Below are positions 10,043 through 36,833 of a stretch of DNA of 41,107 nucleotides, one piece after another. The position numbers and the translations under genes were made by a program. The notes beneath the pieces are model-generated. The model did no database searches. It saw only the letters and a list, made by a program, of their open reading frames with translations, and was not told the DNA's origin. Where the stretch lies: assembly GCA_913009825.1 (NCBI GenBank), contig CAJVYQ010000047.1, positions 1 to 41,107 of the forward strand. Reading direction: 5' to 3'. Source of the DNA: an uncultured Deferribacteres bacterium (lineage in GTDB: Bacteria; Zhuqueibacterota; JdFR-76; DREG01). Within the stretch, counting starts at the first letter, position 1, and each line of letters begins with the position of its first letter.

Positions 10043-10762
10043 TCAAACAAATTTCTCTCTTTTTTGCAAATTGAGCAAGCCATAAAGCATCACTAATACG
10101 GTTCCAACCGACAGATAAATCCGGTTTTTCAGGGTAATATCCATCCAGATCGCTTCATTCATATCGGAAGGCATCATGAATGGGTTGAGAAAAATATTCC
10201 ATTTACTTGCTTCTAAAATCCCGCTGGAGATCCAAAAAGCCACGCCTATTACAACCATCACAACGGCGGTACCGTTGCCATTCCTGGCAAGCGTGGAAAC
10301 CATAAAAGACAAGCTGCCTAAAAAGAAAATGGGAAACATCAACTGGTAAACCATTTCCATCACCGGAACACTGGCCATGGCCAGGCCGGCAAAAAATGAA
10401 AGACCGATGAGAATAACAAAAACAACCACATAAATCAAAGCTAGGCGGACAAGCCACACTTTGTAACGGTAGTTGGGAATGCCAAACAGAATTTCCAACA
10501 TGCGGGCATCGGAATCATTTTGAATACCGAAAGCCGTCGGATAAAAAATGAGAAGAATCCCGGGGAAAAGCAGTGTGTAAAAAACGGAGCCTTCGGTTGG
10601 ATTTGAATCGGAAAAAAGATTTACAATGGCAACAAACAGGAAAAATCCAACAGCCGCCAACAAGAAAAAAATGAATTTGTTGGCAAAAATAATTTTTAAA
10701 TTGTAACGGCTCAGCCGAAACAATACATTGACGCTGTTTTTCCATAATTGTTTGTAATTCAT
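10043..10762 (-). CDS. ABC-2 type transporter permease, partner of the RND-ABC fusion
   Basis: A 239-residue integral membrane protein with about six spans (around residues 26-48, 62-82, 105-132, 135-160, 165-185 and 215-232) and little outside the membrane. The pattern, including NDSDARMLEILFGIPNYRYKVW between spans, fits an ABC-2 permease that acts with an ABC ATPase. The upstream gene's stop codon (TAG, 10771-10773) runs into this gene's AGGGA ribosome site, so translation is probably coupled. The upstream gene encodes an ATPase domain at its C-terminus, the natural partner. Substrate is unknown. No signal peptide or enzymatic domain. Confidence 0.85.
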   Translation of the reverse strand: MNYKQLWKNSVNVLFRLSRYNLKIIFANKFIFFLLAAVGFFLFVAIVNLFSDSNPTEGSVFYTLLFPGILLIFYPTAFGIQNDSDARMLEILFGIPNYRYKVWLVRLALIYVVVFVILIGLSFFAGLAMASVPVMEMVYQLMFPIFFLGSLSFMVSTLARNGNGTAVVMVVIGVAFWISSGILEASKWNIFLNPFMMPSDMNEAIWMDITLKNRIYLSVGTVLVMLYGLLNLQKREKFV

Positions 10763-10770
10763 ATAGTTCC

Positions 10771-13700
10771 CTACATCTTTTTACGTAACAACCACAAATA
10801 GGCATCTTCCAGCGTGGGATGCACGGTGTGCGCATCTTCATGAGGCTTGGATTCTGAGATACACCGAACACGAATCTTTTCTCCATCGCGCATGTGATGC
10901 ACAACCTGATACTGCTGCCGGAATTCTTCGAATTCCCTAACGGCCAGGTGAAGTTGCCAGACATGGCCGCCGGCAATTTCCGTCATTTTGGCAGGTTCAC
11001 CTAAGTACCTTAACTCGCCCCGGTTCATCACTGCAACCCTGTTACAGGAACTGGACACATCTTCGATGATATGAGTGGAAAAAATTACCACCCGTTCCCG
11101 GCTTAATTCCACTAACAGATTCCTGAAACGGATCCGTTCCCGCGGGTCGAGACCGGCCGTGGGTTCATCCACTACCAGAATGCACGGCAAATGAAGAAGA
11201 ATTTGCGCAATCCCGATCCGTTGTTTCATACCGCCGGAAAACGAGCTGATTTTTTCATCTTTATGCTTCTCCATGTGAACTGCACCAAGAACGTACTGCA
11301 CCACCTCTTCCCGTTTATCTTTGTCAACGATATTTTTAAGAATAGCCAGGTAATTGAGAAATTCATAAGCGGTCATATTTTCGTAAGTGCCGAACTCCTG
11401 CGGCAGATACCCGATTAAACCCTGCAGCTCTTCACGCTTTTCATTGGCGTCTATGCCGTTGATCCAAACCTTGCCGTAACTTTGTTCAAAAATGCCGCAG
11501 ATTATGCGCATCAGGGTAGTCTTGCCGGCACCGTTAGGACCAAGCAAACCAAACATGCCGTTGCCAATTTCAAGCGACACACCGTTCAGCGCCCTGAAGG
11601 GTAACTTCTTTTTGCCAATGACCGGAATCATCTGCACAAACCGGTAAAACTGGCGGCGAATGCCGGAGAACCTGCCGATGATTCTGGCAATGTTTGTTTG
11701 TTCGCGGTGCAGCCGGTTGGAAGTGGTGTAAATTGTCAGGGTCAGATACCAAACTGCGAAGATGAAAATCACGATGGCAATATTGTGCCAGCGCGAGAAA
11801 AACAGAATTAAATTGAACAGTGGGAAGCCCCAAAAAAACAGGGGGTGAAAGGGATTGATAATTCTTTTCAGCCACTTGCCTTTTGCCGCTTGTTTCTCAA
11901 GCAGAGGCCGGGCAGCATTCCACAAGTAAAAAACGTAAAAATAGATACCGTGGGCTAAAACAAATAACCAAAAGCCGCTTTGCAGATAAAAATAGACAAA
12001 ATAAATCAGAAACCCCAGCAGGGGAAGCTGCCAGATCAAATTGTCTATCGTTTCCCGTGTTTTAACTTCTCTTGCCTGAACCGCTTTGTTATGAATCAGT
12101 TTTCCTTTCCCCCATTCCCGCACAAACCGGGCATCCTGGTCATAAATCTTGACCAGATTCTGAATCTTAATGATGATAGATTCATCCGGTTTAATAAATT
12201 TTGCCTGCGCCTGGCGCAAACTTACCTGCAGGAAATAGGTCATACCCGGAATCAGCGTAATCAACGAAAACAGAAAAACCAACTGCCAGATTAAACTATC
12301 CACATTAAAATAAATTTCCCAACTGCCAAACAAAAACAGGATAATCTGTGCCAATTTAATTTTCCAGCTTAACGCCCGGAGCCAGGCAAGCGAACTCTCC
12401 AAACCGGAATAAACTGTGGGAATGAAGACCAATGTGAACAGAGTGCTTAACGTAAGTCCGCCAATTACGGTGATGGCAAACGGCGCACCGATCTGGGTGA
12501 CATATTCCCCTTTGCCCATTGCCAGCGGCAGCATGGCGATGATGGTGGTTGTCGCAGTGATCAGAATTGGCCGTACCCTTGCCTGCCCGGCCAGCAGAAG
12601 CGCCCGGGACCGCCGGTATCCCCGTTTCCGTAAAATCCGTGTGTAGTCTATTAAAATAATTCCGTTGTTCACCACCACGCCTAAAAGAATCAGAAATCCG
12701 GTGAGCGTGTTGGCATTAAACAGCGAGTTTCCGGTGAGAATAAGCGCCCAGAACGATCCCATCGCCGCCAGCGGAATGGTGAACATCATCACAATTGGTG
12801 TGGTAAGCGATTCGAACACGGAAGCCAGAATCATAAAAATCAGGATAAAAGCGGCGCCGATTAGAAAATAAAACTCGCTGAAATCGTTCTCATTATGAAC
12901 AACCTCCACGGCAATGCCGGAGGGGATCACCAAGTTGGCTATCAATTGATCGATTTCCGAACGGGAAGCCTCCAACAATGTTTTGGAACCATTGATCTCC
13001 GACAGAAAGCGATATGTCAATTCAATCTGGTTCTCCTGGTTTACCCGGTTAATACTGCCCAGCCCGGAAGCATAAACCGTTTTGGCCAATTGCTGCAATT
13101 CGTATGTACCGCCATTGGAACCGGGAATGGACAATTGTTTGAGATCATTGATATTTTTTTCTTTCCTGGCCGGATCATCGCTTTCATTTGAGCGGATAAT
13201 AATATCATATTCATCTGTGCCCTGTTTATATTTCAGGCCGGAGGAAAATTCACTCTGAAAAGTGCTTAACTCGGCAGCCACCGTGTTCAGCGATACATTA
13301 TATTGCCCCATCGATTGCGGATCAAAATAGAGATGTAATTCAGGACGGTTACTGGAAACATTTAAACGTACGGAACTGATGGAAGACAGGTTTTCCAGAT
13401 AATACCGGATATCATCCGCCACATTGCGCATCCGGTCAAAATTCCGGCCCTTAATAATTATTTTTTCCGATTGCGACCCGATGCCAAGCATCCGTTCAAA
13501 ATTTGCACCGGGATTGGCGCCGCCACCTCCTCTGAAACGACGACTGGATTGCGGCTGTTCAAAATCAACTTCGGCAACACGAATTTGATCCATGCGTTTT
13601 TTGATTTCTTCCTTTATCTGCGCCAGATTCCGGTCATTTATCTGTTCGAAATCTTTTTTTAGTTTTACAGTAACAATTGCTTCGTCTTCGTAAATTTTAC

Positions 13701-15492
13701 TAACCACATCCTGCTTTTCATCGATGTCTTTCAGACGATCCTCTAAGTCGGCCACAACCTTGTCGGTAGACTCCAGCGTGGCTCCCTGGGGCATGGTTAC
13801 ATAAAGGTTGAATTCGTCGGATTCCACTTCCTTAGAAACATTCAAACTGAGCGCCAAAGCGATGATAATACTGGCAAAAAAAGTGACTACTGTAATCAGA
13901 ATGGTTCGAGCCGGAAAACGCAGCGTGGATTTCAATAAAAGAGTGTAGATTTGCAAAAGCCGGTTTTTTTGTGAAACAATCTGAAAATTAGCGGTATCTT
14001 CTGTCTTTCTTTTACGAAAGAAATAATGCGTCACCATGGGCACAAGCGTAAGCGCCACGAATAGCGAAACAAGCAGCGTGGAGATAATGGAAACGCCGAT
14101 GTGGCGGCCGATTAACCTGATGGCAAAATTAGTTGAAAAAATGAACGGCAAAAACACCGTAATAGTCGTTAGTGTGGCAGCAAAAATGGAACGCCAGACT
14201 TCCGATGTGCCCTGAATCACCGCAGTATCGGTATCTTTATGCTGTGCTTTCAGGCGATAAATATTTTCCAGCACCACAACGCTGTTATCCAGCAACATGC
14301 CTATGGCCAAGGCCATTCCTACTAATGTGAGACTGTTCAATGAAATATCAAAAGCGTAAAAAAAGTTCAGCGCGGTAAAAATAGAGATGGGAATGGCCAG
14401 GGCGATAATTAAAACCAAACGGAAATTTCTGAGAAATACCCAAAGAATCATCACCGCCAACAAACCGCCGATAAGGGCTAACCGGATAATTAGATTCACG
14501 TTTGTTTCCATATTCTCGGCGACATCGCTCTGTATGACAATCTCGATATCCCGGGGTTTCAATTCCCGGTTCAGCCGGTCAATCAGGGCCCTGGTTGTAT
14601 GAGACAGGTTAATCTGATTAACCTGCGTATCGCGCACCAGTTGGATGGTAACCGCCTCTTTCCCGTTTACACGGCTCAAAGAAGTCTCGTCTTTCACACC
14701 GACATAAACTTCCGCTACATCTTTCAGTAAAACAGGACCGGCACGGCGCACAACAATGTTTTGCAGATCATTTACATCTGTGTATTCGGCAACGACATTG
14801 ACAAAATATTTTTTATCTTTGCCGTAAACCTGGCCGACATAAGCCCGGCTTTCACTGTTCTGCCGGATAAGGTTACGTATTTGATTGGCCGTAATGTTGT
14901 ATGCGCGGCCGGCATCTTCATCCAGAATAATTTCAACTGATTTTTCCCTGCCGCCAAAAACTTCAACGCCGGCTATGCCATCAATATTTTCCAGTTCGGT
15001 TGCTATTTTGGTATCCACAATGTTTCGCACCCGGTCGACGCCGCCGCTGCCGCGCACCTGCAAACCCATGAACTGGTTGGCCATCTGCTGAGTATCCACT
15101 TTCAAAACATTCACTCTGAATTCTTCAGGCAGTGAATTTTTTATCTCGTTCACTTTTTCCTGCAGCCGAAGGTAAGCGTACTTCAACTTCACACTCTGAT
15201 TGTAATAGACAAAGATCATCCCCTGCCGCTGTTCGGAATACGATTCAAGTTTGTCGATCCCCTCAAGGGTACCGATCGCGCCTTCCAAAGGGATAACAGC
15301 CTGGTTCTCCATATAATGGGGGGCTACTTCCTGTTGGGCGCTGTTCACCATCACAATTAAAAACGGCAGTTCGGCGTTGGGAAACAGTTCAACAGGCAAT
15401 TGTTTGTAGGAGATATATCCCAGCATGGTTAAAGCGATAAAAAGCATGCTGACAAATGTTTTTCGTGAGATAATAAATCTTATAATATTCAT
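10771..15492 (-). CDS. RND efflux permease fused to a membrane-anchored ABC ATPase
   Basis: One uninterrupted 1573-residue frame. Residues 1 to about 1032 are a complete RND permease: TM1, a large porter loop, the TM4 motif GMLLDNSVVVLENI with Asp402, a second porter loop, and the TM10 motif GVVVNNGIILIDY. Two extra spans follow (about 1040-1085). IIIKIQNLVKIYDQ (1106-1117) looks like the first strand of an ABC domain, but about 175 residues with roughly four spans (1153-1252) intervene before LPFRALNGVSLEI (1297-1309). The ATPase then continues: Walker [10 protein letters not shown] (1318-1326), signature SGGMKQ (from 1419), Walker B LVVDE (Glu1443), H-loop His1474. All catalytic residues are present. 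Start has weak AAAGAAAA upstream. Neighbours are an RND permease upstream and an ABC permease downstream. I know no characterised protein with this layout. Confidence 0.88.
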   Translation of the reverse strand: MNIIRFIISRKTFVSMLFIALTMLGYISYKQLPVELFPNAELPFLIVMVNSAQQEVAPHYMENQAVIPLEGAIGTLEGIDKLESYSEQRQGMIFVYYNQSVKLKYAYLRLQEKVNEIKNSLPEEFRVNVLKVDTQQMANQFMGLQVRGSGGVDRVRNIVDTKIATELENIDGIAGVEVFGGREKSVEIILDEDAGRAYNITANQIRNLIRQNSESRAYVGQVYGKDKKYFVNVVAEYTDVNDLQNIVVRRAGPVLLKDVAEVYVGVKDETSLSRVNGKEAVTIQLVRDTQVNQINLSHTTRALIDRLNRELKPRDIEIVIQSDVAENMETNVNLIIRLALIGGLLAVMILWVFLRNFRLVLIIALAIPISIFTALNFFYAFDISLNSLTLVGMALAIGMLLDNSVVVLENIYRLKAQHKDTDTAVIQGTSEVWRSIFAATLTTITVFLPFIFSTNFAIRLIGRHIGVSIISTLLVSLFVALTLVPMVTHYFFRKRKTEDTANFQIVSQKNRLLQIYTLLLKSTLRFPARTILITVVTFFASIIIALALSLNVSKEVESDEFNLYVTMPQGATLESTDKVVADLEDRLKDIDEKQDVVSKIYEDEAIVTVKLKKDFEQINDRNLAQIKEEIKKRMDQIRVAEVDFEQPQSSRRFRGGGGANPGANFERMLGIGSQSEKIIIKGRNFDRMRNVADDIRYYLENLSSISSVRLNVSSNRPELHLYFDPQSMGQYNVSLNTVAAELSTFQSEFSSGLKYKQGTDEYDIIIRSNESDDPARKEKNINDLKQLSIPGSNGGTYELQQLAKTVYASGLGSINRVNQENQIELTYRFLSEINGSKTLLEASRSEIDQLIANLVIPSGIAVEVVHNENDFSEFYFLIGAAFILIFMILASVFESLTTPIVMMFTIPLAAMGSFWALILTGNSLFNANTLTGFLILLGVVVNNGIILIDYTRILRKRGYRRSRALLLAGQARVRPILITATTTIIAMLPLAMGKGEYVTQIGAPFAITVIGGLTLSTLFTLVFIPTVYSGLESSLAWLRALSWKIKLAQIILFLFGSWEIYFNVDSLIWQLVFLFSLITLIPGMTYFLQVSLRQAQAKFIKPDESIIIKIQNLVKIYDQDARFVREWGKGKLIHNKAVQAREVKTRETIDNLIWQLPLLGFLIYFVYFYLQSGFWLFVLAHGIYFYVFYLWNAARPLLEKQAAKGKWLKRIINPFHPLFFWGFPLFNLILFFSRWHNIAIVIFIFAVWYLTLTIYTTSNRLHREQTNIARIIGRFSGIRRQFYRFVQMIPVIGKKKLPFRALNGVSLEIGNGMFGLLGPNGAGKTTLMRIICGIFEQSYGKVWINGIDANEKREELQGLIGYLPQEFGTYENMTAYEFLNYLAILKNIVDKDKREEVVQYVLGAVHMEKHKDEKISSFSGGMKQRIGIAQILLHLPCILVVDEPTAGLDPRERIRFRNLLVELSRERVVIFSTHIIEDVSSSCNRVAVMNRGELRYLGEPAKMTEIAGGHVWQLHLAVREFEEFRQQYQVVHHMRDGEKIRVRCISESKPHEDAHTVHPTLEDAYLWLLRKKM

Positions 15493-15606: not shown

Positions 15607-18600
15607 TTATACTTTCCGCAACTGATCCAGCACAGAATACACACAGGGGATCACCGCAAGGGTTAAAACAGTGGAGGTAATCAAACCGCCAATTACAGCC
15701 AGTGCCATGGGTGCCCGCAGCGCCGCACCTTCGCCAAAGCCAAAAGTAAGCGGCAGCAGCGCTAAAATGGTTGTCAGACTGGTCATGATAATCGGGCGGA
15801 TTCTTCTTTGTCCCGCTTCAATAATAGCATCACGCCGTGACAGGCCTTCCTGCTTCAACCGGTTGATGGCATCCACCAAAATGATGGAATCATTAACCGC
15901 AATTCCCGCCAGCATGATGATGCCGATATAGGCCATGATGTTGAACGTTTGCCCCAGTACAAAAAAGATTAAGATAGCCCCAACACCTGCCAGCGGAATC
16001 GTCAGCAAAATAGTGAAGGGGTGGATCAACGATTCGAACTGCGAAGCCAGCACCATATAAACCAGGATGATGGAAAGAATAAGAGCGAATTTAAGATTAT
16101 GGAACGCATCTTCCCGTTTTTGTTCTTCACCGGTTATGGCCAGTTTGTAATTGGGCGGCAGATCAATTTTGGCTAATTTTTGCCGGATCTCTCCGATCAC
16201 ATGGTCAAACGGTTTGTCACTTTTCAGGTGAGCCGTTACGCGACCAATGCGGGTCTGATTCCGGCGATTAATCTCTTTCGGCGCATTTTCCATGCGGATG
16301 GTAGCTACTTCATCGAGGCGGACCTTCTGATTGCCTACGATGAAAAAGATGTCATTTAATCTATTTAAACTGACTTTGGGCAATTTGATGGTGATATCCT
16401 GCATTTCACCTTCCGTTTCCCATTGTCCGGCATCTCGTCCCATCAATTGATTCCGCAACTGGGTGCTGATCTGATTGACGTTGATATTATAAATACCGGC
16501 ACGCAGCCGGTCGATGACCACATCCACTTCCGGGCGGCCGTTCTCAAAACTGGTTTTGATATTGATCAGATCGCTGACGGAATCCAGTTGTTGTTTAATT
16601 TGTTGGGTTAACTGCTCCAATTGACCAAGGTCTTCGCCCCTCACTTCCACACTGACAGGAGCGGCTTCGGTTCCCAGGGTGGTCTGCAGAGCGGATTGTT
16701 CCTGGATGAATTGGGTCTCCAAACCGGGGATATCGGAAAGAGTGGCGCTTAACGAAGTGATCACTTGATCGGAAGAAAGCTTGTGCTCCGGTTTGAGGAT
16801 AATCTTCATGGTTGCTGTATTTTCACCCTCAAAAATGGAATTTTGTTCAGAACCGATGCCTGTTTCCGGGCCGATATGGCTGTAAATAGTTTCAATATCA
16901 TCTCCCAAAATAGACCGGGTAATCGTTTCGATATCCTCCACCGTTTTTTCGGTGCGGTACAATTCCGTACCTTCCGGCAGACGGATTTCCAGGGAAAACT
17001 CCCCCAGGTCGGTTTTGGGAATAAATTCGCTGCCGATAACAGGGATTAACAGGATGGATATGGCCACCAAAGCAGCGCCGCTGCCGATAACCAGCCAACG
17101 CCGGTCTAATATCTTCGCTAACAACTTGCCGTACCAGCTAAAGCGGATCGATTTGGGCTGTTGAGCAGCCGGCGCATTTTTCAGGATGCGGACACTCAAC
17201 ATGGGGATGACCAAAATAGCGACAACAAGGGAGGAAAGCAGGGAAAAGGCAACAGTCCAAGCTTGATCTTTAAACAGCTCCCCCGCGGTACCATGCAAAT
17301 AAACGATGGGCAAAAACACTACAATCGTTGTAAGCGTAGAGGCGGTAATGGCTCCCCCAACTTGTGCAGTGCCTTTGATGGACGCTTCTTTCAAACTATC
17401 TCCCGCTTCCAGGTTGCGAAATATATTTTCCATCACCACAATGGCATTGTCAACCAGCATACCGGCGCCCAGCGCCAGCCCCCCCAACGTCATGATGTTT
17501 AAGGTTAATCCGTTAAAATACATCAAATTGAAAGTTGCAACAATGGAGATGGGAATGGCAAGGCCGATGATGGTTGTCGTCCCAATCCGGCGCAGAAAAA
17601 CATACAAAACAATGACCGCTAAAATAATACCGATCAGTGCGCTCTGTTTTACTTCATTGATGGCGTTTGTGATGAATGCACCCTGATTTTGAATCACCTG
17701 TAAATTGTAACCGGGTAAGGCTTTGCGTAAATTGTCCAATTCTTTCTGTAAATCATTTACAGCCTGAACCGTGTTGAATTTGGTCTCTTTATAAATGGAT
17801 AAACCGAGGCAGCGTTTTTTATCGATCCGCACGATATTTTCCGGATCTTTGTTGCGGAAATGGATATCCGCCACGTTTTTCAGATAAACAGGAACACGTT
17901 CCGTGACCGACACTTGCTGTGAACTGCCGGCCGGCTGGGTTTCCTGCTTGTAGGCAACAATCATATTACCAATATCATCTATCGACTGAAAAACTCCTAC
18001 TCCTTTGATGATGTATTTTAGTCCCATTTCCACAACAGAACCGCCGGAGATATTGCGGTTTAGATTTTGAATCCGGGCTGCAATTTCGTCCGAAGTGAGT
18101 CCGAAGGCTTCAAGCAGATAAGGATCCGTATCGATGACCACTTCCTTCTCTTCCTGGCCGGAAATCTCAACTTCTGCAATTCCTTCCAAACGAATCAGCT
18201 CATTCCGGATATAATTTTCCGCCACTTTGCGCAGTTCATCCATATCCTGAATTTGCGGATTAGATAAACCGATGAGCATAACCGGTGCGGTATTGGGATT
18301 ATGCTGAGTAATCGTTAATTCGTCAATTTCCGAATTCTGACTAGTAGCGGAGAGCGCTTTCTGCAAATCTAAAAAGGCCTCGTCCATATCTGCACTCCAA
18401 CTGTACTCCACCGTGATCTGGGCAGAGCCCACACGGGAGACGGATGAGACCTGCAAAACATGCTTCTGGCGAATGGCCAAAGATTCCATGCCGTCAACAA
18501 ACTGTTTCTCTATCTCCTCAGGCGGCCGCTCGCCGGCTTTCAATTCGACATAAATGCGGGGATTGTTCAAATCCGGCAGCAGGTCTATGCCCAATTTTTG

Positions 18601-18690
18601 AAAGGAGATGTAACCTAACAACAGAACCGCAAGCACAAGCATTAAAACGGTAATCGGATAGTTAACGGAGAATTCTGTAATTTTTCTCAT
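15607..18690 (-). CDS. RND efflux permease (AcrB/MdtBC-like)
   Basis: A full-length 1027-residue RND permease with twelve expected spans and two large periplasmic porter regions. Proton-relay landmarks are GMLVDNAIVVMENIF in TM4 and GIAVNDSIILVDAI in TM10; the Asp is kept and the usual Lys of AcrB is replaced by Asn-Asp, common in this wider family. Inner membrane, drug or lipophile export with an MFP and a TolC protein, both encoded immediately upstream on the same strand. The next gene encodes a second RND domain, so a mixed trimer as in MdtB/MdtC is a reasonable inference. Substrate cannot be told. Confidence 0.93.
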   Translation of the reverse strand: MRKITEFSVNYPITVLMLVLAVLLLGYISFQKLGIDLLPDLNNPRIYVELKAGERPPEEIEKQFVDGMESLAIRQKHVLQVSSVSRVGSAQITVEYSWSADMDEAFLDLQKALSATSQNSEIDELTITQHNPNTAPVMLIGLSNPQIQDMDELRKVAENYIRNELIRLEGIAEVEISGQEEKEVVIDTDPYLLEAFGLTSDEIAARIQNLNRNISGGSVVEMGLKYIIKGVGVFQSIDDIGNMIVAYKQETQPAGSSQQVSVTERVPVYLKNVADIHFRNKDPENIVRIDKKRCLGLSIYKETKFNTVQAVNDLQKELDNLRKALPGYNLQVIQNQGAFITNAINEVKQSALIGIILAVIVLYVFLRRIGTTTIIGLAIPISIVATFNLMYFNGLTLNIMTLGGLALGAGMLVDNAIVVMENIFRNLEAGDSLKEASIKGTAQVGGAITASTLTTIVVFLPIVYLHGTAGELFKDQAWTVAFSLLSSLVVAILVIPMLSVRILKNAPAAQQPKSIRFSWYGKLLAKILDRRWLVIGSGAALVAISILLIPVIGSEFIPKTDLGEFSLEIRLPEGTELYRTEKTVEDIETITRSILGDDIETIYSHIGPETGIGSEQNSIFEGENTATMKIILKPEHKLSSDQVITSLSATLSDIPGLETQFIQEQSALQTTLGTEAAPVSVEVRGEDLGQLEQLTQQIKQQLDSVSDLINIKTSFENGRPEVDVVIDRLRAGIYNINVNQISTQLRNQLMGRDAGQWETEGEMQDITIKLPKVSLNRLNDIFFIVGNQKVRLDEVATIRMENAPKEINRRNQTRIGRVTAHLKSDKPFDHVIGEIRQKLAKIDLPPNYKLAITGEEQKREDAFHNLKFALILSIILVYMVLASQFESLIHPFTILLTIPLAGVGAILIFFVLGQTFNIMAYIGIIMLAGIAVNDSIILVDAINRLKQEGLSRRDAIIEAGQRRIRPIIMTSLTTILALLPLTFGFGEGAALRAPMALAVIGGLITSTVLTLAVIPCVYSVLDQLRKV

Positions 18691-18823: not shown

Positions 18824-19897
18824 TCATCTGATAATTTTCACTTTAGAACGATTTCGCAGTGTCTCAAAACCTTTAACCACCAGCCGGTCGTTGGCCTTTA
18901 AACCCTGTACCACTTCTACTTCATCCGGGTTTTCCAGGCCGGTTGAGATGATCCGTTCCCGCGCCACGCCTCTTTCGACAATGAATACGGATTTACCGCG
19001 CCGTTTTGACAAAATAATATCTTTGGGAATAACCAGGGCGCTGTCTCTGCGGGCAACAATTATTTCCGCTTTTACAAACATGCCCGGACGCATGATTAAT
19101 TTTGGATTGGCAATTTCGATGTAGGCCAGAAAGGAGCGTGTATCCGGATTGATTGCCGGGGAAACCTGCGTGATGAAACCGTTTAATGTATCATTGGCCA
19201 AAGAATAATTCATCAAACGAACCGGCTGTCCGGTTTTCATTTTGCCCAAATCCTTGCCCGGAAGATTGATATCCAAATAAAGCTTGCTGTAATTCATTAT
19301 TTGTGCCATGGACATGTTGGTGCTGATTTTCACACCGGGCGTGTAATAAGGTAATTCGACAATTACACCATTGAAAGGGACGATAATTTTTAGCTTGGCC
19401 AATTGAAGAAGAGAATAATCATAATTGTATTGGGCATCTTTATAAGCTTTCTGGGAATTTATCAATTCCCGCAAGGTTACACCCCCTTTTTTGTAGAGGG
19501 ATTGCTGTTTCTCATATTCCCTTTTCGAAATATCCAGGTTCAGCTTTTGTGATTCAATTTTTATGTTGTTCTCCAACTCCGGATTGTCGAGGCGGATAAT
19601 TTCCCGGCCTTTTTTAACAAAATCACCCAGGGCAAACGGCTTACCGGTAGTTTTGTTTATCAATAGATAATAATACCCGGCGGTTTCCGAATTTAGTGTT
19701 GCCTCTTCCATAGCATTTACGGTTCCGGTTGTCGTAACAAATTCTTCCATGGGCTTTGGTTTGACCTCTTCAACGGAAACAGGAATGGAGATATCTGTTG
19801 CTACATTCGTATCCTGACCGCCACAGCCGATTAAAAACAGGCCAATTAACAACAAAAAATGTCTGCGTTTCACTATGAACTCCTTAATATTAATCAT
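18824..19897 (-). CDS. Efflux periplasmic adaptor lipoprotein (membrane fusion protein)
   Basis: An RND-type adaptor of about 357 residues. A lipobox LIGC follows KRRHFLLLIGLF, so the mature protein is a lipid-anchored periplasmic adaptor. The barrel-sandwich half-motifs flank a short helical hairpin (NIKIESQKLNLDISKREYEK ... AQYNYDYSLLQLAKLK). They are followed by IVPFNGVIVELPYYTPG, then beta-barrel and membrane-proximal domains ending VVKGFETLRNRSKVKI. Two starts are plausible: ATG 19897 behind AGGAG, or GTG 19873 behind AAGGAG, which gives a shorter, more typical signal peptide. It joins the RND permease and the TolC-like protein encoded on either side. Confidence 0.9.
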   Translation of the reverse strand: MINIKEFIVKRRHFLLLIGLFLIGCGGQDTNVATDISIPVSVEEVKPKPMEEFVTTTGTVNAMEEATLNSETAGYYYLLINKTTGKPFALGDFVKKGREIIRLDNPELENNIKIESQKLNLDISKREYEKQQSLYKKGGVTLRELINSQKAYKDAQYNYDYSLLQLAKLKIIVPFNGVIVELPYYTPGVKISTNMSMAQIMNYSKLYLDINLPGKDLGKMKTGQPVRLMNYSLANDTLNGFITQVSPAINPDTRSFLAYIEIANPKLIMRPGMFVKAEIIVARRDSALVIPKDIILSKRRGKSVFIVERGVARERIISTGLENPDEVEVVQGLKANDRLVVKGFETLRNRSKVKIIR

Positions 19898-19929
19898 ATC
19901 CACTCCTAACCCTGATCTTTGTAATATTT

Positions 19930-20064
19930 GTAACAATTTAGTGCTTTCACAATTACCGGGCTGTTATTCCCGAATGCTCTTATCGGTCTGCCTGTTGCAG
20001 GCAGGCCGTTAAAATCATGCGGGAATGACAGCCTGCGCGCCGTTTCAAAGAAGTAAAATGTTAC
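19930..20064. repeat. MITE-like element, family 2 copy B
   Basis: The ends GTAACAATTTAGTGCTTTCA and the inverted ...GAAGTAAAATGTTAC bound 135 bp. The interior, GGGCTGTTATTCCCGAATGC, CTTATCGGTCTGCCTG, CAGGCAGGCCG and ATCATGCGGGAATGACA, matches the element at 9451-9597 nearly base for base. It occupies almost all of the gap between the TolC-like gene and the adaptor gene, so it would be transcribed as a hairpin inside the presumed operon. Confidence 0.75.
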
Positions 20065-20070
20065 GAATTT

Positions 20071-21549
20071 TCATTTATCGATTGAAAGTACCGATCTGTT
20101 TTTTTCAAAATCCCAGAGGGACTGTATTTTCAGATTCAACAATGCTAATTTGTAATTAATCAACGCCTCAACCAATCCCATTTTTTTCTGAGAAAGCTGG
20201 GTTTGGAACAGGTTCAAATCCATACTGGTAAGGTCACCGTTTTTGTAGCGTTCTAAGTTGATATCGTAAGTTAACTGGGCGTTACGAACATTTTGCCGGG
20301 CAATCTCCACCTGATTTTGCAGGTTGATAAGGCTGCGATACGCCTGGCGAATGCCGATGATGATATTGTTTCGTTCATCTTCAAGGGACAATTGCCGGTT
20401 TTTTACCACCGCCTGTGAAGCTTTGATGCGCGATTTTTTTTCACCCCAGTCCCAAAGAGGAATGTCGAAAGAGATGGAAAATCTTTGATTCTTTGTCGGC
20501 GCGTCATAAATATTGCCAAACTGTTCATCCGTGCCGATGATGCCGTAATTCAATGAAACATTTCCTTTGAATTCATTTAGCGCCGATGTTTGTATTAAAT
20601 TATATCGCGCATTTTCAATATCAATTTTCCGTTGCCGTAGTTCCATTCTATATTTCAAGCCATGTTCGATCGCACTATTCAGATCCACTTCCACCGGATG
20701 ATGGGAAATATCGGCAGTAACTTGAATGGAATCGAAAAGAGAAATGCCGACTAAATTTTTGAAATCATCCAGGGCATTTTCCAATGTAACATTTTCATTC
20801 TGGAGTTGAGACTCACTTGTAGCCAGGTTTAATTCGGCCTGGTACAATTCCTCTTTAGCGGCCAGTCCGGCATCCACTTTATTCTTAATGATCCCGTAAC
20901 TTTTTTGCTGATTGTTTCTTTCTTCGATGGCGATGTTTTTACTCATTCTCTGTTTGTACACATTGTAAAAATTTTGTGTTACCGACCTTTCCAAAGCCAG
21001 TTTTTCAATGTCGTAACTAAGCGAGTTGTTTTCCAAATCTAATTCTAACGACCGCAGGTTTATTTTTGTCCGGTTGTAAGTAAAAATGGGCTGCTGAAAA
21101 CTGAGATATAAATTATTATCATAGGTTCTGGACTTGGACGTGCCGAATGGATTGGCGCTGCTTGCATCCCGCCAGCTTAGCCGGTTTATAATTGCAAAGG
21201 TGCCGTCTGTCCATGAAATGGGCTGAGAAATGGTGAACATGCCGTAAGATTGTTTGGTTTGCGTAGTAAACCAGGATGAAAAATCGGTATTAAAAAGGCG
21301 GTCTTTACTGTAATCCACCGGTGTGATAGACAGAGAAAACCGGGACTTCAGTGCTGCCTGCTGTGCTTTCAGAGACTGGCTGCTTCGTTCCAGATTTAAT
21401 TCCACACTGCGAATATCGGGACTGTTCTTGGCCGCAATTTCAAGCGACTGCTCCAGTGTCAGGGATTTCTGGGCATACAATGGTCCCATGCCGAAGGCCA
21501 TCGGGCAGAGTGAAAAAAGATACACGAAAATTCGAATTTTGGCAAACAT
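20071..21549 (-). CDS. TolC-family outer membrane efflux protein
   Basis: A 492-residue outer-membrane factor. A signal peptide ends near LYAQ (about residue 27), followed by SLTLEQSLEIAAKNSPDIRS, the usual start of the first TolC repeat. Two long alpha-hairpin repeats follow, with heptad-like helices (ENNSLSYDIEKLALERSV; NQVEIARQNVRNAQLTYDIN) and short beta segments (YLSFQQPIFTYN; FSISFDIPLWDWGEKKSR). Trimeric outer-membrane channel for the adaptor and RND pumps encoded downstream. GAGGGA precedes the ATG. Family length is normal and nothing is missing. Confidence 0.9.
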   Translation of the reverse strand: MFAKIRIFVYLFSLCPMAFGMGPLYAQKSLTLEQSLEIAAKNSPDIRSVELNLERSSQSLKAQQAALKSRFSLSITPVDYSKDRLFNTDFSSWFTTQTKQSYGMFTISQPISWTDGTFAIINRLSWRDASSANPFGTSKSRTYDNNLYLSFQQPIFTYNRTKINLRSLELDLENNSLSYDIEKLALERSVTQNFYNVYKQRMSKNIAIEERNNQQKSYGIIKNKVDAGLAAKEELYQAELNLATSESQLQNENVTLENALDDFKNLVGISLFDSIQVTADISHHPVEVDLNSAIEHGLKYRMELRQRKIDIENARYNLIQTSALNEFKGNVSLNYGIIGTDEQFGNIYDAPTKNQRFSISFDIPLWDWGEKKSRIKASQAVVKNRQLSLEDERNNIIIGIRQAYRSLINLQNQVEIARQNVRNAQLTYDINLERYKNGDLTSMDLNLFQTQLSQKKMGLVEALINYKLALLNLKIQSLWDFEKNRSVLSIDK

Positions 21550-21725: not shown

Positions 21726-24700
21726 TTATTGCCGTTTCACCCACTTCACCGCATCCGCATAAACAATCCGCGCTTTGGATTCATTGGTTAATTCAACTTT
21801 TGCATCACCGGCCGAGATATAATAACTGCCTAAAAACACCCAATCATTTTCGGCATTGCCCATATTCAAAATAGTATCATCCTCACCATCATCGTGATAA
21901 ATTTTAAAATGATACTGCTCGCTCTCCGGTCTCCTTTTTTTATCTCCGCCTCTTCGCATCCAGGGCATGGAAATTTTACTGGCATAATAATAAATATCAT
22001 AGTAACCGCTGGTAGGTATTTTAGCATTCCAGGCTACTTTTTTGCTGCCGTCACCGGAGCGGATGAAGTAGCCTGATTTAACCAACCGTCCGTAAAAATT
22101 GGCATGAATTGTAGCCCGCCATTGTTTCGGTGGACGCCAGAAAGTCAAACCGATATATTTTTTATTATCTTTCGAATTGGAAATTTTAAATAATTTTTTG
22201 ATAAAACTTTCCGAGGTGGTGCTGAAAGTTTCAAATCCGGGATCTTCGTTATCGACAATGATTTCATCGGGCGTTTGCAATTCAACCGGGCTGTCCACGA
22301 TTTTTTCACCATCGAAGAGCTTCACATTTTTAGCCAACTTCAGATCAATAAACATTTTCGTCATAGTGGCCGGAAGATTCCTGGAGATAAATGTATTGAC
22401 CGTCATTACCCGCGGCTGGTAATCAAGAATAATGCCGATCTCTTTATTTTGATTGCCTTCCATATTTATGATCCGTTTCACTTCGTTGTCGCTGCTGCCG
22501 CCCATACCAAAGCGCCCTCTCCCTCCCATACGAAATGAAACCTCCACCAATCCGGCAACGGATTCGATATTGGAAATTTTGAATCGAACCTGATAGCGGG
22601 TACGCTCCCCATCTAAGACCTGGTTTGCTTTGATATCTCCAATCAGGAAACCCGGTAATTTTTTACTGGCATACCAATTTTCAACATAAGGCGTCAGATT
22701 GAAATTAAACTCTTTTTTAAGCGTAGAAATGATTTGGTCTACGTTCAAGGATTTAAAATGATTTTCGGATAAAATTTTCGATAAAAACCCGGGAAATTTC
22801 TCTTCACCCAATCTACTTTGCAGCAGGGTAAAAAGATAGGCGCCCTTCTCTTTGATGATGTCCGGAATCACCTCTTTTTTATCCGGATCTGCCAACAGTT
22901 CCGGCAGACTTTTCTCGCTCAATTCAATATTGGTTTTTTCCTGGGAGGACAATCCTTCGTTAAATCTGAAGCCCATAGATCTTTTCACGCTCACTTTGCT
23001 GCTCAGATAGGATTCCATCGCCACATTAAAAATTGGCCATTTTGGCGCGTCAATATAATTTACAAAAGTAAAATAGTTGGGGAAGATTTTGTAATAAACC
23101 GGTGTTCTCAAACCGACATTTCCCCGGAATCTGTTAAAGCCCTGGCCGCCAAGAAAAGTATCCCGTACAAAACGTTGAAACATATTGCTCTGTATTTCCC
23201 GGGGCGTTTCCACCACATTGCTGCGTTTTTGTCTTCTTTCCTGCCAGGATAAAAACTGTTTAAAATCACCACTTGAAAGTAATATGCCCAATTCGGGCAA
23301 CAAGACCATCTCCGGCTGCACGGTTTCCTGAGCTTCCGTCCAGAAACGCTTGTAACTGAATAATTGAATAGGTGTTTCCACTAAGTTCAAATCGGGATAC
23401 AAATAAGGTAAATCCAGATCAACTTCATAATCTTTTTTATTTTCCCGGATGAGGGCAGCAAGCGTATCGTCTATTTCCGAGAGATACGGAGCAAAATAAT
23501 CGTGGCCCTTTAAAAAATAAACATGATAATCGACGGAATCCACGGAGATGGATTTCTCCACATATTTGCCCGCCACAAGAGACAAGCCGGGAAGCGGGAA
23601 CTCCGGAGCAAATTTGTATTCACCATCCCCGGTTTTCACTGGTTTCCCTTGCGAAACAGGTATCAAACCCGGTTGAGTTTTAACAGTGAGGGAAAATTTT
23701 GTAAAACTCTGCGTATGGATTTCCGGATGTTTGGCACTGTAATTTATCCCTGATTCCGGGTACCAGTTGGCCTCGGGAGATAACAAGAGATAATCCGGTT
23801 CGATAAAACTGTATCTTTTTTGAACTCTAAATAAAAAATAACGAAAGGGTTCTTCCCGTGTTTCCTCATCAACATCCACGTAACAGGCCCGCTCGTCGAT
23901 GGTTCCCCGGTAATCGATCTGCAGAGAATCCAGCATACGGGGGGCAAGCGGCTGTACCGGTTGAATCTCTATGATATGAATATCCCTTTTGAACGGAATC
24001 TGCCCTTTGCTGTTTGAAATTCGATTGATTTTCAGGCCAGGATTCAAGCGGAAAACATATTTTGTAATAGGCCGGTTCGATTCATTTTTGAATAAAAGCC
24101 CGGCGCTGCACGTTATCTCGTTTCCCGAATGGTTCAAAATTAAATCCGTACGGACGGGAGAAACTTTCGCTTCATTGAAGTAGCGATCATCGAGCGTAAT
24201 CATTTTACTGCGGAGTGTTTTCCCGGACGAAAAATTGAGCACATAAACAACGCCGAGACCCAATCCCACTATGATAAAAAGAAAAGCAAGAAAACGCGAA
24301 GCGTTCGTCATCACGACAGATTGAGGCAGACGCTTGATCATCAAAATCGTTAAAAAAATAAAGCCAAGCCCCAGGAAAAAATAGATGCCGCGATGAATCA
24401 GTATATTGGTCAGGTCGCCAAAACCGACAAACTCAGAATACATCAACGGCACATAAAAAGACATATAATCGAGCAAATGATAAAATTTCTGGTTCAAAAA
24501 GAAAACAGTCAGGGCAATATAGCCAAGGAGGACAATAAACGTCACCGGTTGATTTTGAATGGTAACCATGAACAGAAAAGACAAGCCGAAAATAAATACC
24601 AGTGTCGGCAGGCTGATTAGCAAAGGATAAAGAAGGTAAACGCCAAAATTCAAAGCCACATCCGTGAAAAAGATGTTAAAAATCAGAGCGACAAGCAGGA

Positions 24701-25073
24701 CAATCACATTTAACGCCATAAAAACCAACAGGATGCCCAATGTTTTCCCCAAAACATAATCGCTATTAGCCAGCGAACGCATATAAATGACTTCCGTGGT
24801 ATCCAGTTTTTTATCCCGTTTGAGAAAATCGGAAGCAAGGAAAACGGCAATGGCGGCCTGAACCACATTCAACATGAGCAAGTTCATATAAGGAATCGAA
24901 GCCGGAATTCCACGAAACATCCACGGAGAGTGACCGGCTTTTGTTAGAATGCCCACATTAAAGAAGACCAAAATGACAACCGACAGGATGGCAAAAATAC
25001 GAAAGAACCAGCTTCGCAGTAAGGTTTTGGTTTCTATTCTCGCTACATTCCAAATATTATAGAGAGATAACAT
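21726..25073 (-). CDS. ABC permease with degenerate M1-peptidase-like domain and golvesin-like tail
   Basis: A 1115-residue protein. Residues 1 to about 280 hold about seven membrane spans of the ABC-2 type (first span WFFRIFAILSVVILVFFNVG). A large extracytoplasmic region resembles the aminopeptidase-M1 fold found in ABC-permease fusions of Bacteroidota. The zinc motif HExxH expected before the active-site Glu is absent: the region reads TFVNYIDAPKWPIFNVAMES. So hydrolysis is unlikely. The last 110 residues (SGYFIRSGDGSKKVAWNAKI ... IVYADAVKWVKR) resemble the golvesin or xanthan-lyase C-terminal beta-sandwich, a possible carbohydrate-binding module. AAGAGG precedes the ATG. The ABC ATPase encoded just upstream is the obvious partner. 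Confidence 0.8.
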   Translation of the reverse strand: MLSLYNIWNVARIETKTLLRSWFFRIFAILSVVILVFFNVGILTKAGHSPWMFRGIPASIPYMNLLMLNVVQAAIAVFLASDFLKRDKKLDTTEVIYMRSLANSDYVLGKTLGILLVFMALNVIVLLVALIFNIFFTDVALNFGVYLLYPLLISLPTLVFIFGLSFLFMVTIQNQPVTFIVLLGYIALTVFFLNQKFYHLLDYMSFYVPLMYSEFVGFGDLTNILIHRGIYFFLGLGFIFLTILMIKRLPQSVVMTNASRFLAFLFIIVGLGLGVVYVLNFSSGKTLRSKMITLDDRYFNEAKVSPVRTDLILNHSGNEITCSAGLLFKNESNRPITKYVFRLNPGLKINRISNSKGQIPFKRDIHIIEIQPVQPLAPRMLDSLQIDYRGTIDERACYVDVDEETREEPFRYFLFRVQKRYSFIEPDYLLLSPEANWYPESGINYSAKHPEIHTQSFTKFSLTVKTQPGLIPVSQGKPVKTGDGEYKFAPEFPLPGLSLVAGKYVEKSISVDSVDYHVYFLKGHDYFAPYLSEIDDTLAALIRENKKDYEVDLDLPYLYPDLNLVETPIQLFSYKRFWTEAQETVQPEMVLLPELGILLSSGDFKQFLSWQERRQKRSNVVETPREIQSNMFQRFVRDTFLGGQGFNRFRGNVGLRTPVYYKIFPNYFTFVNYIDAPKWPIFNVAMESYLSSKVSVKRSMGFRFNEGLSSQEKTNIELSEKSLPELLADPDKKEVIPDIIKEKGAYLFTLLQSRLGEEKFPGFLSKILSENHFKSLNVDQIISTLKKEFNFNLTPYVENWYASKKLPGFLIGDIKANQVLDGERTRYQVRFKISNIESVAGLVEVSFRMGGRGRFGMGGSSDNEVKRIINMEGNQNKEIGIILDYQPRVMTVNTFISRNLPATMTKMFIDLKLAKNVKLFDGEKIVDSPVELQTPDEIIVDNEDPGFETFSTTSESFIKKLFKISNSKDNKKYIGLTFWRPPKQWRATIHANFYGRLVKSGYFIRSGDGSKKVAWNAKIPTSGYYDIYYYASKISMPWMRRGGDKKRRPESEQYHFKIYHDDGEDDTILNMGNAENDWVFLGSYYISAGDAKVELTNESKARIVYADAVKWVKRQ

Positions 25074-25202: not shown

Positions 25203-26120
25203 TTATTTGGTCCCGCCGTTGCCCCTGAACTCATCCGGGTTTGCATGCAATTTATAATCCATGAAATAAACATAAGCATGTTCCAGGTTTGGTTCAATCT
25301 CCTGGCCGGAAAATCCTTTCAATTCATCCGCCACAATTTCTACTTCCCAACCGTTTTCCGCCGGGAGGGTGGCGATGACCGGATATTTTTGTTTGATCTC
25401 TTCCAACTCGCTATCGATAGCCTCAATACGGAACGTATGGCCTTTCACCGACTCGACCAAATCATCCGGAGACCCTTTGTAGGCGAGTTCCCCGTTATTG
25501 AGCAAGGCCATATCGGTACAGGTACTGGAGATGTCGCTCACAATATGGGTGGAAAGAATGATAATGATGTCCTTTTGTGTGAGGTCAGCCAACAGATTAC
25601 GGAACCGGATTCTCTCCTCAGGATCAAGTCCGGTAGTCGGTTCGTCAACCACGATGATTTTAGGATCGCCGATCAATGCCTGCGCGATACCGAGACGGCG
25701 TTTCATCCCGCCGGAAAGCTTGTTTGCCATCCGGTCCCGCGCTTCAAACAGACCGACATTTTCCAGCATTTCATCCACAGCAATTTTTCTTTGCCGGCCA
25801 TGGGTTAATCCGGCCAAACTTGCAACATAGTCCAGAAACTCCCAAGTGGTTAACTTGGAAAAAAATTTAAACTCTTGCGGTAAATAGCCTAACATAGCAC
25901 GCACTTCACGCCTGTTTTTCAACAAGTCCAACTCATTCACTTTCACAATCCCTTTGGTCGGTTTCATGAGAGTTACCAGAATACGCATCAATGTGGTTTT
26001 GCCGGCTCCGTTAGGGCCCAACAGACCAAACATTCCATGATTGATTTGCAGACTCACATCGTCAAGCGCTTTCTTTCCATTTTTGTATATTTGGCTTAAA
26101 CCCTCAATTGTTATTTGCAT
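25203..26120 (-). CDS. ABC transporter ATP-binding protein
   Basis: A 305-residue ABC ATPase with Walker [10 protein letters not shown] (35-43), Q-loop GYLPQEF, signature LSGGMKRR, Walker B IIVVDEPTTGLDPEERI and H-loop STH. A C-terminal extension of about 80 residues follows (EIEPNLEHAYVYFMDYK). It is strikingly like the ATPase part of the RND fusion at 10771-15492: [19 protein letters not shown] and RIRFRNLL are shared exactly, and both end in a PxLE-AY motif. This points to recent duplication within the cluster. First gene of the export series; drives the permease encoded next. Cytoplasmic face of the inner membrane. Confidence 0.93.
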   Translation of the reverse strand: MQITIEGLSQIYKNGKKALDDVSLQINHGMFGLLGPNGAGKTTLMRILVTLMKPTKGIVKVNELDLLKNRREVRAMLGYLPQEFKFFSKLTTWEFLDYVASLAGLTHGRQRKIAVDEMLENVGLFEARDRMANKLSGGMKRRLGIAQALIGDPKIIVVDEPTTGLDPEERIRFRNLLADLTQKDIIIILSTHIVSDISSTCTDMALLNNGELAYKGSPDDLVESVKGHTFRIEAIDSELEEIKQKYPVIATLPAENGWEVEIVADELKGFSGQEIEPNLEHAYVYFMDYKLHANPDEFRGNGGTK

Positions 26121-26398: not shown

Positions 26399-26800
26399 TT
26401 AACCGCGCGGTCTGCCGCGTCCCCGTCTTCCCGACCGTTGTTTCTCCAGATAGGTTTTAAACTGTTTTACCTGATCCTTAGTCAACAATTTTTCAATTTC
26501 TTTATTGGTCTTATCCCGTTTCGCCCTGAATTCCTGCATCATTTCCATACGCTCATCCCTGCTCATATTCCGCATTCCGGAACGGTTAAAAGAGACGGTA
26601 TTTTTTTCTAAAATCGCACGAATTTTAATTTGTTGATCTTTGGTCAATTTTAGAGCGTCCGTCATGCCTTTCATTTGACGTTCAATCCTCTGGACAGTCC
26701 GTTTATCCAATTGGGGTTTTTTATCCTGGGCAAGTGCGCTAAAAATTAATCCGGTAAAAAGAAATAACACCAACGCAGCTATCGTAGATTTTCTGAACAT
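26399..26800 (-). CDS. Periplasmic Spy/CpxP-like (LTxxQ) protein
   Basis: A 133-residue exported protein. The signal peptide (MFRKSTIAALVLFLFTGLIF to SALAQ) is followed by a helical, highly charged mature part with two LTxxQ-like repeats: LKLTKDQQIKIRAIL and LLTKDQVKQFKTYL. In Spy/CpxP proteins this fold acts as a periplasmic chaperone or stress sensor. The C-terminus SGRRGRGRPRG is Arg-Gly rich and probably disordered. GGAGGT five bases before ATG 26800 fixes the start; the frame extends 10 codons further upstream without a site. It is upstream of the export cluster on the same strand, so a link to envelope stress is plausible but inferred. Confidence 0.75.
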   Translation of the reverse strand: MFRKSTIAALVLFLFTGLIFSALAQDKKPQLDKRTVQRIERQMKGMTDALKLTKDQQIKIRAILEKNTVSFNRSGMRNMSRDERMEMMQEFRAKRDKTNKEIEKLLTKDQVKQFKTYLEKQRSGRRGRGRPRG

Positions 26801-26913
26801 ATCTACCTCCTTATTTTGTGAATTACTCAATTATATCCTGTTTTATTTTCAATCACTATACATTCAAATTCTGTAGAAAGTTCAAAACATCAATTTGCTT
26901 TGAAAACTTTTTC

Positions 26914-28190: not shown

Positions 28191-31100
28191 TCATATTTTT
28201 TCCGGCGCTAATTTTCTTTCTCTCCCTTCATCTGTTTTTTTACCGAACCGTTTCTTAGTTTTTTCGCCAACGATCTCAACCACTGCGTAAATCACGGGAA
28301 CAACAATTAGAGTCAAAACCGTACCCGCTGTCAAACCTCCCATCACCGAACGCGCCATGGGCGCCCAGTTTTCGCCACTTTCTCCCAAGCCAAGCCCCAG
28401 GGGCAACATGGCCAAAATAGTGGTTAAAGCGGTCATCAGAACGGGTCTCATGCGAATGAGCCCCCCCTGCCGGATTGCATCAAATAATTCCAACCCTCTT
28501 TCCCGGAGTTGGTTAATATAATCGACCAGCACAATGCCATTATTTACCACAATGCCAATCAGCATAACAATTCCAACAAGAGCCATCACACTGAGGTCTG
28601 TGCCGGTCAAAGCCAATCCCAGGGCAACCCCGATGGAGGAAAGAGGAATGGTGAACAGAATGATAAACGGGTCGACCAGAGATTCAAACTGCGATGCCAT
28701 GACCATATAAGTAAGCAGCACCGCCACCAACAGGGCAATCCCCAGGTACATAAACGATTCCTGCTGATCCTGGGCAACGCCGCCGATTCCGATACGAAAT
28801 TCATTAGGAATGGAGACACCCTTCAAAGCTTTTTCCACATCTTTTGTTACACTTCTCAGGTCGCGTCCGGAAACGCTTACATTCAAGCTCACCATGCGTT
28901 CCTGATCTTCCCGTAAAATTTGTGCCGGCGCTTTGGCATACTCAATATTTGCCACGGCACGTAATGGAATCTGTTTGCCAAAAGGGGTCATGATCGGGAT
29001 ATTTCCGATATCCTGTTCATTGTTGCGCGATTTTTTTGTCAACTGAACCCGGACGTCGTATTCATCACCCTGGTCACGGTACCGGGTTACCACCGTGCCG
29101 AGAACACTTGTGCTGACAATCCGCCCTATCTGTGTCGTACTAAGTCCCAGATCGGCGATTCTTTGACGGTTCAAATTGATTCTCAATTCGGGTGCGGCTT
29201 CTTTGACGGTACTCTCGATGTGAACGATCCCCTTAATATTTTCAATCTTGCCGCGAATTTCCTTTGACAACTCTTCAGCTATTTTCAGGTCATGTCCGTA
29301 GATTTCCACTACAATATCCCCGGCGGAACCAAACATGGCCGCTCCCCTGTCTTCAAACTTTATTTTGAGATCGGGCAGCATTTTAAATTTTTCACGCAAA
29401 TCATCCTGAATTTCCGCCATTGTTCGATTCCGTTCACTCATCTTTTTCAAACGGATAATCACATCCGCCTGGTTGGAAGTACTGGTGGAAAACGCCGCAA
29501 ATACGCCTTCACCCTGGCCGAAAGTGATATAAGTCACTTCCGCTTCCGGCACATTTTCTTCGATAATTTTATTCAACTGCAACATGCTTTTTCCCATCGA
29601 TTCCAGACTGGTTCCCGGTGAACGGTCGACTACGATTTGGACAAAACCCATATCATTTTTGGGAATAAATTCGCCGCCGAGATTCATTAAAATCAAAATG
29701 GAAATAACAAAGGTAACCAGTGCAGTTGCCAGAACCGTTTTCCGGTGTTGCAACGACCGATCCAGAACGACAGAATAACCGGTTTGCAAACGGGATAATC
29801 CTCTTCCGACAGAATCCCGCGTTTTTGTAACAATCTTGCTCCGTCTTAAAGTTTGCTTAATGGCAAGAAAACGGGAGGCAAGCAATGGAATTAAGGTGAG
29901 GGCAACAAACAGAGAAACGGCCAGGGAGAAACAGATAGTAACCACCATGTCGCTAAAAAGCTCACCCGCCAGACCGGGGACAAACAACACGGGAACAAAT
30001 ACGGACAGGGTCGTCAACGTAGATGCGGTGATCGCCATGGCCACTTCATTGGCGCCGTTGTAAGCAGCGGTTTCAATATTTTCCCCTTCCTCCTGATGCC
30101 GGAAAATACTTTCCAGCACAACGATGGAATTATCCACCAACAAACCCACCGCCAGCGCCAGACCGGCCATGGAAATGATATTCAGTGTAAGTCCCGTTTG
30201 ATCCATCACCGCAAAAGTGACAATAATTGAAACGGGAATGGATATCGCGACAATCAGTGAACTTCGAAAATTTCTGAGGAAAACAAGCAACACCAAAAAT
30301 GCCAGGCCAATTGCCTGGACGGCTGTGCTTCCCAGGTTGGACATGGAACGATTAATGAAAGTCGACTGATCGTAGATCACATTCAGCTTTACTCCTTTCG
30401 GCAGTTCGGATTGAATCTGTTCGAAGCGGCCGGTCACTTCCCGGGAAACAGCTACCGTATTCGCATCCGATTGTTTTTGAACCATGAGAATGACGGAGCG
30501 TTTACCGTTTGTCCACACCCGCTGGCGCAAATCGGCAAAACCATCCACTACATTGGCCACGTCTTTGATGCGAATGACCGTATTGCCAACCGTAGCAATG
30601 TTGGTGTTTTTAATCTGTTCGATACTATGATATTCCCCCACTGTCTGGATAGTAAACTCCCTGTGTTCATCTTCCAGCCAACCGGAGGGCAACTGCAAAT
30701 TGTTAGACTGAAGCGCTGCAGATACCTGCTGAATGGGAATGTTGTGTGCCCGTAATTTGGCCGGGTCTACCTGAATTTTAATTTCCCGGCGCATCCCTCC
30801 GGTTGTAAACGCCATGGCCACTCCCGGAATTCTTTCGATTCTCGGTTCGATATCGCGTTCCGAAATTCTGCGCAATTCCGCCTCTCCGTGCAGGTCGGAT
30901 GAAACGCCCATAAAAAGAATCGGCTGAGACGATGGGTCCAGTGCAAACACCAACGGCTCACTGGCGTCTTCCGGCAAATAATCCCGTACAAACTCCAGGT
31001 TGTTGCGGACATCAATTTCCGCCTGATTCATGTCTGTGCCCCAGTCAAATTCCAGCAGCACCAACGAAAGCCCCTGTTTGGTAGTGGAAGAAACTTTTTT

Positions 31101-32458: not shown

Positions 32459-32480
32459 GATATTCTCCTTTTATGATGTT

Positions 32481-33857: not shown

Positions 33858-33953
33858 TTTATTTATCTCCCTGTTAGTCCTTTTGCCAATTCACTTTCTT
33901 TCGTACTAAATCGCAGTTTTCTCAACCAAGCATTTTATTTACAAACATTTTTT

Positions 33954-36763: not shown

Positions 36764-36833
36764 CTTTGAACTCCAAAAGTTTAAATCGACAAACTTAATT
36801 CACCTGTATTTTAGCGGATATCCGTTTACCAAA

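Follow-up and report, generated by a model that had tools for sequence, protein, structure and literature searches.

In an extensive review of tripartite exporters, ABC, RND, and MFS transporters are treated as separate engines (PMC8277102). The same source includes the SecDF fusion of Thermus thermophilus, in which RND-superfamily parts in one chain assist an ATP-driven machine (PMC8277102); SecDF consists of two joined halves of the RND superfamily and has no ATPase, unlike the chain described here. The HAE-1 RND systems MdtABC-TolC and AcrAB-TolC resemble the locus under study in their full ACR_tran architecture, one adaptor, and one TolC-type channel, and the presence of two RND genes is of the MdtABC type. 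The best sequence match of the fusion protein in the PDB was MdtB. In contrast to MdtABC and AcrAB, one of the RND proteins of the locus is extended by additional membrane helices and an ABC ATPase. MacAB-TolC links an ABC exporter to an adaptor and a TolC channel, but its permease MacB is of the FtsX type (type VII), brings its own NBD, and has no RND part. The ABC-2 or type V exporters (NosDFY, PmtCD, ABCG, ABCA, and the GldA type) have their counterparts in the ABC-2-like permeases of the operon, and GldA/DrrA-type ATPases and the NBDs of ABCA are the closest to the fused NBD, which differs from all of these in being interrupted between its first and second strands and in being joined to an RND permease. 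In two-step efflux, as carried out by MdfA and AcrB of E. coli, one transporter crosses the inner membrane and an RND pump clears the periplasm. The hand-over that we propose below would be similar, except that MdfA and AcrB are separate proteins, whereas the components described here are encoded in one operon and partly in one chain.

The window, i.e. the whole stretch of 41,107 nt that was analysed, contains a seven-gene operon on the minus strand, in the order ABC1, M1perm, OEP, adaptor, RND1, RND::ABC fusion, and ABC2p. ABC1 (25203..26120) is a stand-alone ABC ATPase identified with Pfam. M1perm (21726..25073) combines an N-terminal ABC-2-like permease, an M1-peptidase-like domain, and a C-terminal Golvesin_C domain. 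It is followed by a TolC-type outer membrane channel (OEP, 20071..21549; PF02321, E 1.6e-44), a periplasmic adaptor (RND_mfp, 18824..19936; TIGR01730, 181.9 bits compared with a cut-off of 94.9), and the stand-alone RND permease RND1 (15607..18690; ACR_tran, E 1.1e-220). The gene for the RND::ABC fusion protein (10771..15492) precedes that for ABC2p (10043..10762), a membrane protein of 239 aa that probably serves the fused NBD as its ABC-2 (type V) permease.

The open reading frame of the fusion begins with ATG, has no internal stop, and encodes 1573 aa. Residues 3-1029 of the fusion protein (FUS) form the RND permease part (12406..15486), to which the Pfam profile ACR_tran aligned over positions 1-1018 of 1021 (E 4.7e-173), i.e. 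over a full-length RND architecture. ABC_tran aligned over all of its 137 positions to FUS 1302-1446 (Pfam, E 1.2e-27). The preliminary description had placed the junction at 12.2-12.4 kb, in agreement with the end of RND homology at about 12406. A linker 3′ of the RND part (FUS 1043-1096; 12205..12366) contains two extra predicted membrane helices (FUS 1043-1063 and 1067-1096, residues 44-64 and 68-97 of the AlphaFold model). It leads to the first strand of the ABC domain, IKIQNLVKIY, with the A-loop residue Tyr1117 (FUS 1108-1117; 12142..12171), which was assigned with the ABC1 profile and is strand 109-118 of the model. An insert within the ABC domain (FUS 1118-1298; 11599..12141) separates this strand from the remaining ABC ATPase domain (FUS 1299-1573; 10774..11598), which contains all catalytic motifs and a C-terminal region common to ABC1. 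The claim that one unbroken frame joins a complete RND permease to a complete ABC ATPase thus stands for the frame, its coordinates, the RND part, and the catalytic motifs, while the ABC domain is complete only when the first strand at 12142-12171, set about 181 residues apart, is counted. At least seven other full-length RND proteins of the same genome have matches that end with the RND part, so that the fusion is a special case in this genome.

The structure of the C-terminal region of the fusion protein was predicted with AlphaFold (23 sequences, mean pLDDT 80.7, pTM 0.62). The insert was predicted to contain four membrane helices (model residues 146-170, 174-203, 207-236, and 239-265), which lie between FUS 1145 and 1264. 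In the model they are followed by an amphipathic helix and by the remaining ABC domain from FUS 1299 onwards. With helix limits that were chosen by eye, Lys and Arg are abundant in the predicted cytosolic loops but not in the predicted periplasmic ones. An R..REW motif of the insert is invariant across the alignments, as are one Tyr and one Pro. Comparison of the insert with Pfam matched no family, and a possible origin of the insert as a degenerate copy of ABC2p was rejected, because the profile comparison was negative (E 0.33).

The ABC1 profile aligned to the fused NBD over positions 17-289, including the C-terminal part, with 310 bits; its first strand was absent from this alignment. When the first strand of ABC1 was scored along the linker, all of 24 homologues gave their best match exactly at the strand that precedes the insert, with 12-18.5 bits, compared with at most 11.6 bits at the second-best position. 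The distance from the A-loop Tyr to Walker A is 193-247 residues in the fused NBDs and 23 residues in ABC1; this range omits the value of 271 for L044, which reflects another KIY match further upstream. The fused NBD thereby departs from the usual spacing of continuous NBDs, in which the A-loop lies about 23-25 residues before Walker A. The displaced strand and the long gap between A-loop and Walker A show that, at the level of sequence, the first strand of the ABC domain has been split off by a membrane-spanning insert. The displaced segment is predicted as a strand, and it may rejoin the ABC sheet in space and complete the fold. In one homologue (G057/L053; G057:C183, 5931-10831, minus strand), the fusion is naturally split inside the insert, the two pieces are adjacent, and the first ABC strand is left on the RND piece. 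This split could represent either decay or a true two-piece form.

Including that of the window, 40 intact fused chains were found in the samples of four phyla, with lengths of 1489-1889 aa; the lower extreme is a frame cut by a contig end and the upper extreme (G985) is an N-terminally extended frame. The latter had been a candidate for a fusion with ABC2p, which was rejected because the extra length is an in-frame extension at the N-terminus and ABC2p is a separate open reading frame. The phylum of the window is represented by about 60 genomes in the genome set. With the C-terminal 559 residues as query, the same junction was found in 28 of 59 genomes of this sample, including the genome of the window itself. 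An intact chain was present in 24 of these (in one case ending at 1489 aa with the contig), while the homologues in the remaining genomes were more heavily cut by contig ends, broken, or split, e.g. that of G058/L042, which is broken inside the RND part. A query restricted to the junction retrieved 17 of 53 genomes of the same phylum at E 1e-45 or better. The respective values were 6 of 393 for the Bacteroidota sample, 1 of 200 for the sample centred on a named Gemmatimonadota (Gemmatimonadetes) MAG, and 5 of 297 for that centred on a named Acidobacteriota (Acidobacteria) MAG. The fusion was absent from a mixed set of 30 named genomes. A contig scan with Walker A patterns had at least three fused matches, and carriers known by name are two Bacteroidales MAGs (JANTGF010000043.1 and JAITWJ010000058.1) and a Carboxylicivirga MAG (JAOARW010000097.1).

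The 39 further intact fusions in other genomes rule out an assembly join, a frameshift, or chance as explanations. The preliminary description had proposed a search across genomes for RND and ABC_tran in one protein, and had considered that family members might always be split; the search returned the 40 intact chains, next to the one natural split in G057/L053. No plasmid record spanned the junction, the greatest cover being 34% among the best-ranked records, and a plasmid-borne element was therefore rejected as an explanation.

In a quick tree, the fused RND parts formed one clade and the RND1 proteins another, with support of 100 each. Likewise, the fused NBDs (40 rows) and the ABC1 proteins (24 rows) each formed one clade, and the two were sister clades (support 100/99) when compared with nine other ABC ATPases of the genome. 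The fusion persists across deep divergence, down to about 35% identity; it is old and conserved, and has its origin in a single clade. The simplest history is that the operon ATPase was duplicated once, that an insert was gained, and that one fusion with an RND gene took place, all before the lineages with about 35% identity parted.

The gene neighbourhood is conserved as well. Leaving out contig edges, 35 of the 37 testable loci have ABC2p immediately downstream of the fusion, and RND1 lies upstream on the same strand in 34 of 38. The other same-strand neighbours were in place in 30 of 32 (adaptor), 26 of 29 (OEP), 24 of 29 (M1perm), and 19 of 24 (ABC1) loci. In several of the exceptions, a block of ABC1 and M1perm is located nearby on the opposite strand. 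In L046, L047, L171, and L172 this block is divergent from the block of fusion and ABC2p, which suggests two regulatory modules.

The assignment of ABC2p was followed with three approaches, in which the ABC-2 character of the protein came out weakly but repeatedly. Among 19 orthologues, nine matched the Pfam family ABC2_membrane_2 (best E 1.4e-4) and eight matched ABC2_membrane_3, the value for the protein of the window itself being E 4.3. The predicted fold (pLDDT 83, pTM 0.79) had its best matches in PmtCD, ABCG5/G8, ABCG2, and NosDFY, all of them weak (E 0.014 or worse). The profiles of ABC2p and of the M1perm N-terminus were colinear over 213 columns with E 3.6e-4 and a probability of only 37%. 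The HExxH zinc motif is missing from the M1perm orthologues (23 of 23), and this dead peptidase domain may serve to bind the substrate.

Every one of the 40 fused NBDs has an intact Walker A, Q-loop, signature, Walker B, and H-loop. In the fusion protein of the window, Walker A reads GPNGAGKT (FUS 1318-1325; 11518..11541), and the further motifs are LPQ (Q-loop), SGGMKQR (signature), VDEPTAGLD (Walker B/D-loop), and STH (H-loop). The catalytic motifs are complete, and the fused NBD is predicted to hydrolyse ATP. In two loci (L177 and L178), Walker A of ABC1 is altered and that of the fused NBD is canonical, which possibly indicates a degenerate ABC site. For the RND half, we compared the residues of the AcrB proton relay, Asp407, Asp408, Lys940, and Thr978. 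The first Asp of TM4 and the Thr of TM11 are retained. Unlike in AcrB, the second Asp of TM4 (Asp408) is replaced by Asn or Ser and the Lys of TM10 (Lys940) by Asn, resulting in Asn-Asn in TM10. Stand-alone RND pumps encoded by this genome have TM4, TM10, and TM11 motifs of the same types, so that this pattern argues neither for nor against a loss of proton coupling. The proposal that the fused RND part gave up proton coupling in favour of ATP is thus unsupported.

ABC ATPases act on permeases in the form of dimers. A sister ATPase and two ABC-2-like permeases are encoded in the operon, and the fused NBD therefore most likely drives an ABC-2 exporter of its own, as is usual for such ATPases, in which case the fusion would connect this exporter with the RND pump. 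An asymmetric ABC-2 exporter is the most economical reading of these components. The operon would then encode one composite envelope exporter with two engines. The first engine would be an asymmetric ABC-2 (type V) exporter with ABC1 and M1perm as one half and the fused NBD and ABC2p as the other; the evidence for pairing of the fused NBD with ABC1 and ABC2p is supportive, if indirect. The second engine would be an RND pump built from RND1, probably the second subunit type, and the RND half of the fusion, likely as a mixed trimer by analogy with MdtBC, which the adaptor would join to the TolC-type channel. After the last RND helix, the fused chain would cross the membrane twice, form the first ABC strand, cross the membrane four more times, and complete the ABC domain in the cytosol. 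The most likely task of the ABC engine would be to use ATP for carrying or flipping a substrate across the inner membrane or out of it. The substrate is perhaps lipid-like or amphipathic, and perhaps bound by the dead M1 domain. The RND engine would most likely take it up on the periplasmic side and expel it through the channel at the expense of the proton gradient. We give about an even chance to this reading, i.e. a heterodimeric ABC-2 exporter that is covalently tied to an RND heteromer and in which an ATP-driven step hands the substrate to a proton-driven step. A point against it is that an RND trimer and an ABC dimer, tied to each other, have no obvious common stoichiometry.

Several other readings have to be weighed. 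The preliminary description had suggested a dual-energised or ATP-gated exporter; the single RND/ABC chain is real, but an ATP-gated RND pump is one possibility among others, with a sister ATPase and ABC-2-like permeases flanking the fusion. If the fused NBD acted mainly on its own RND trimer, with the flanking ABC genes as accessories, the direct covalent link would be accounted for, and the extra helices between the RND part and the NBD could transmit movement. The Asp-Asn/Ser in TM4 and Asn-Asn in TM10, in place of Asp-Asp and Lys in AcrB, would also fit such an ATP-gated or ATP-driven pump, but the stand-alone RND pumps of the genome have the same motif types, and the conserved ABC-2-like permeases and the sister ATPase are the more usual partners of an NBD. 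We consider it unlikely. A new class of exporter, in which ATP hydrolysis and the proton gradient are mechanically coupled in one chain, is conceivable, albeit doubtful. Its ABC domain would surround a bundle of membrane helices that continues into an RND pump, and the ATPase cycle and the functional rotation of the RND part would drive or gate each other.

The link could instead be a tether or a regulatory device that ensures one complex or a fixed ratio, with the ABC and RND parts acting independently on substrates of their own. The conserved operon and the single chain are compatible with this, as is the split homologue of G057, which keeps both pieces adjacent and is cut inside the membrane insert. 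However, the invariant R..REW motif, Tyr, and Pro of the insert and the deep divergence (about 35% identity) exceed what a loose tether would need, and we regard a mere tether as improbable. Both NBDs look catalytically complete, so that two homodimeric ABC-2 exporters that share the RND pump, i.e. ABC1 with M1perm and the fused NBD with ABC2p, have to be considered as well. The complete catalytic sites, present in both NBD types almost everywhere, and the divergently transcribed ABC1-M1perm block in four loci would be in accord with two homodimers. In contrast, the sister clades of ABC1 and of the fused NBD have been kept together, as expected of a heterodimer, and two homodimers therefore appear very unlikely to us.

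That the fusion matches no characterised system, as had been supposed, is in agreement with our searches. No chain matching both the RND and the ABC parts was found in the PDB, the junction profile matched only ordinary NBD starts, and no description of an RND-ABC chain was found in the open-access full text of PMC. It is very probable that such proteins already have entries, without comment, in automatic databases. Each of the parts is of a known kind, and the composite is, as far as can be told, undescribed. By placing an RND engine and an ABC engine in one chain, this conserved family breaks the classification of tripartite exporters by one engine, be it ABC, RND, or MFS. The fusion is also a natural construct with which it can be asked whether a single export event can draw on both ATP and the proton gradient. 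Furthermore, the ABC domain apparently tolerates an insertion that spans the membrane and separates its first strand from its second, a point of relevance to the coupling of NBDs and membrane domains.

The surroundings of the operon contain further envelope genes, all on the minus strand. Just upstream of ABC1, a small Spy/CpxP-like protein with a weak Metal_resist match is encoded (26399-26830), and a relative is found at the same place in L031 (1042-1476); the protein might sense envelope stress for the system. Directly upstream of the hybrid operon there is a second tripartite operon, of the ordinary RND kind (28191-34559), with genes for an RND protein, an adaptor, an OEP, and a TetR regulator. 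It is accompanied in the window by a Gld-like ABC operon (35387-40297), which encodes an ABC ATPase, an ABC-2 permease with ABC_transp_aux, and a DUF4340 protein.
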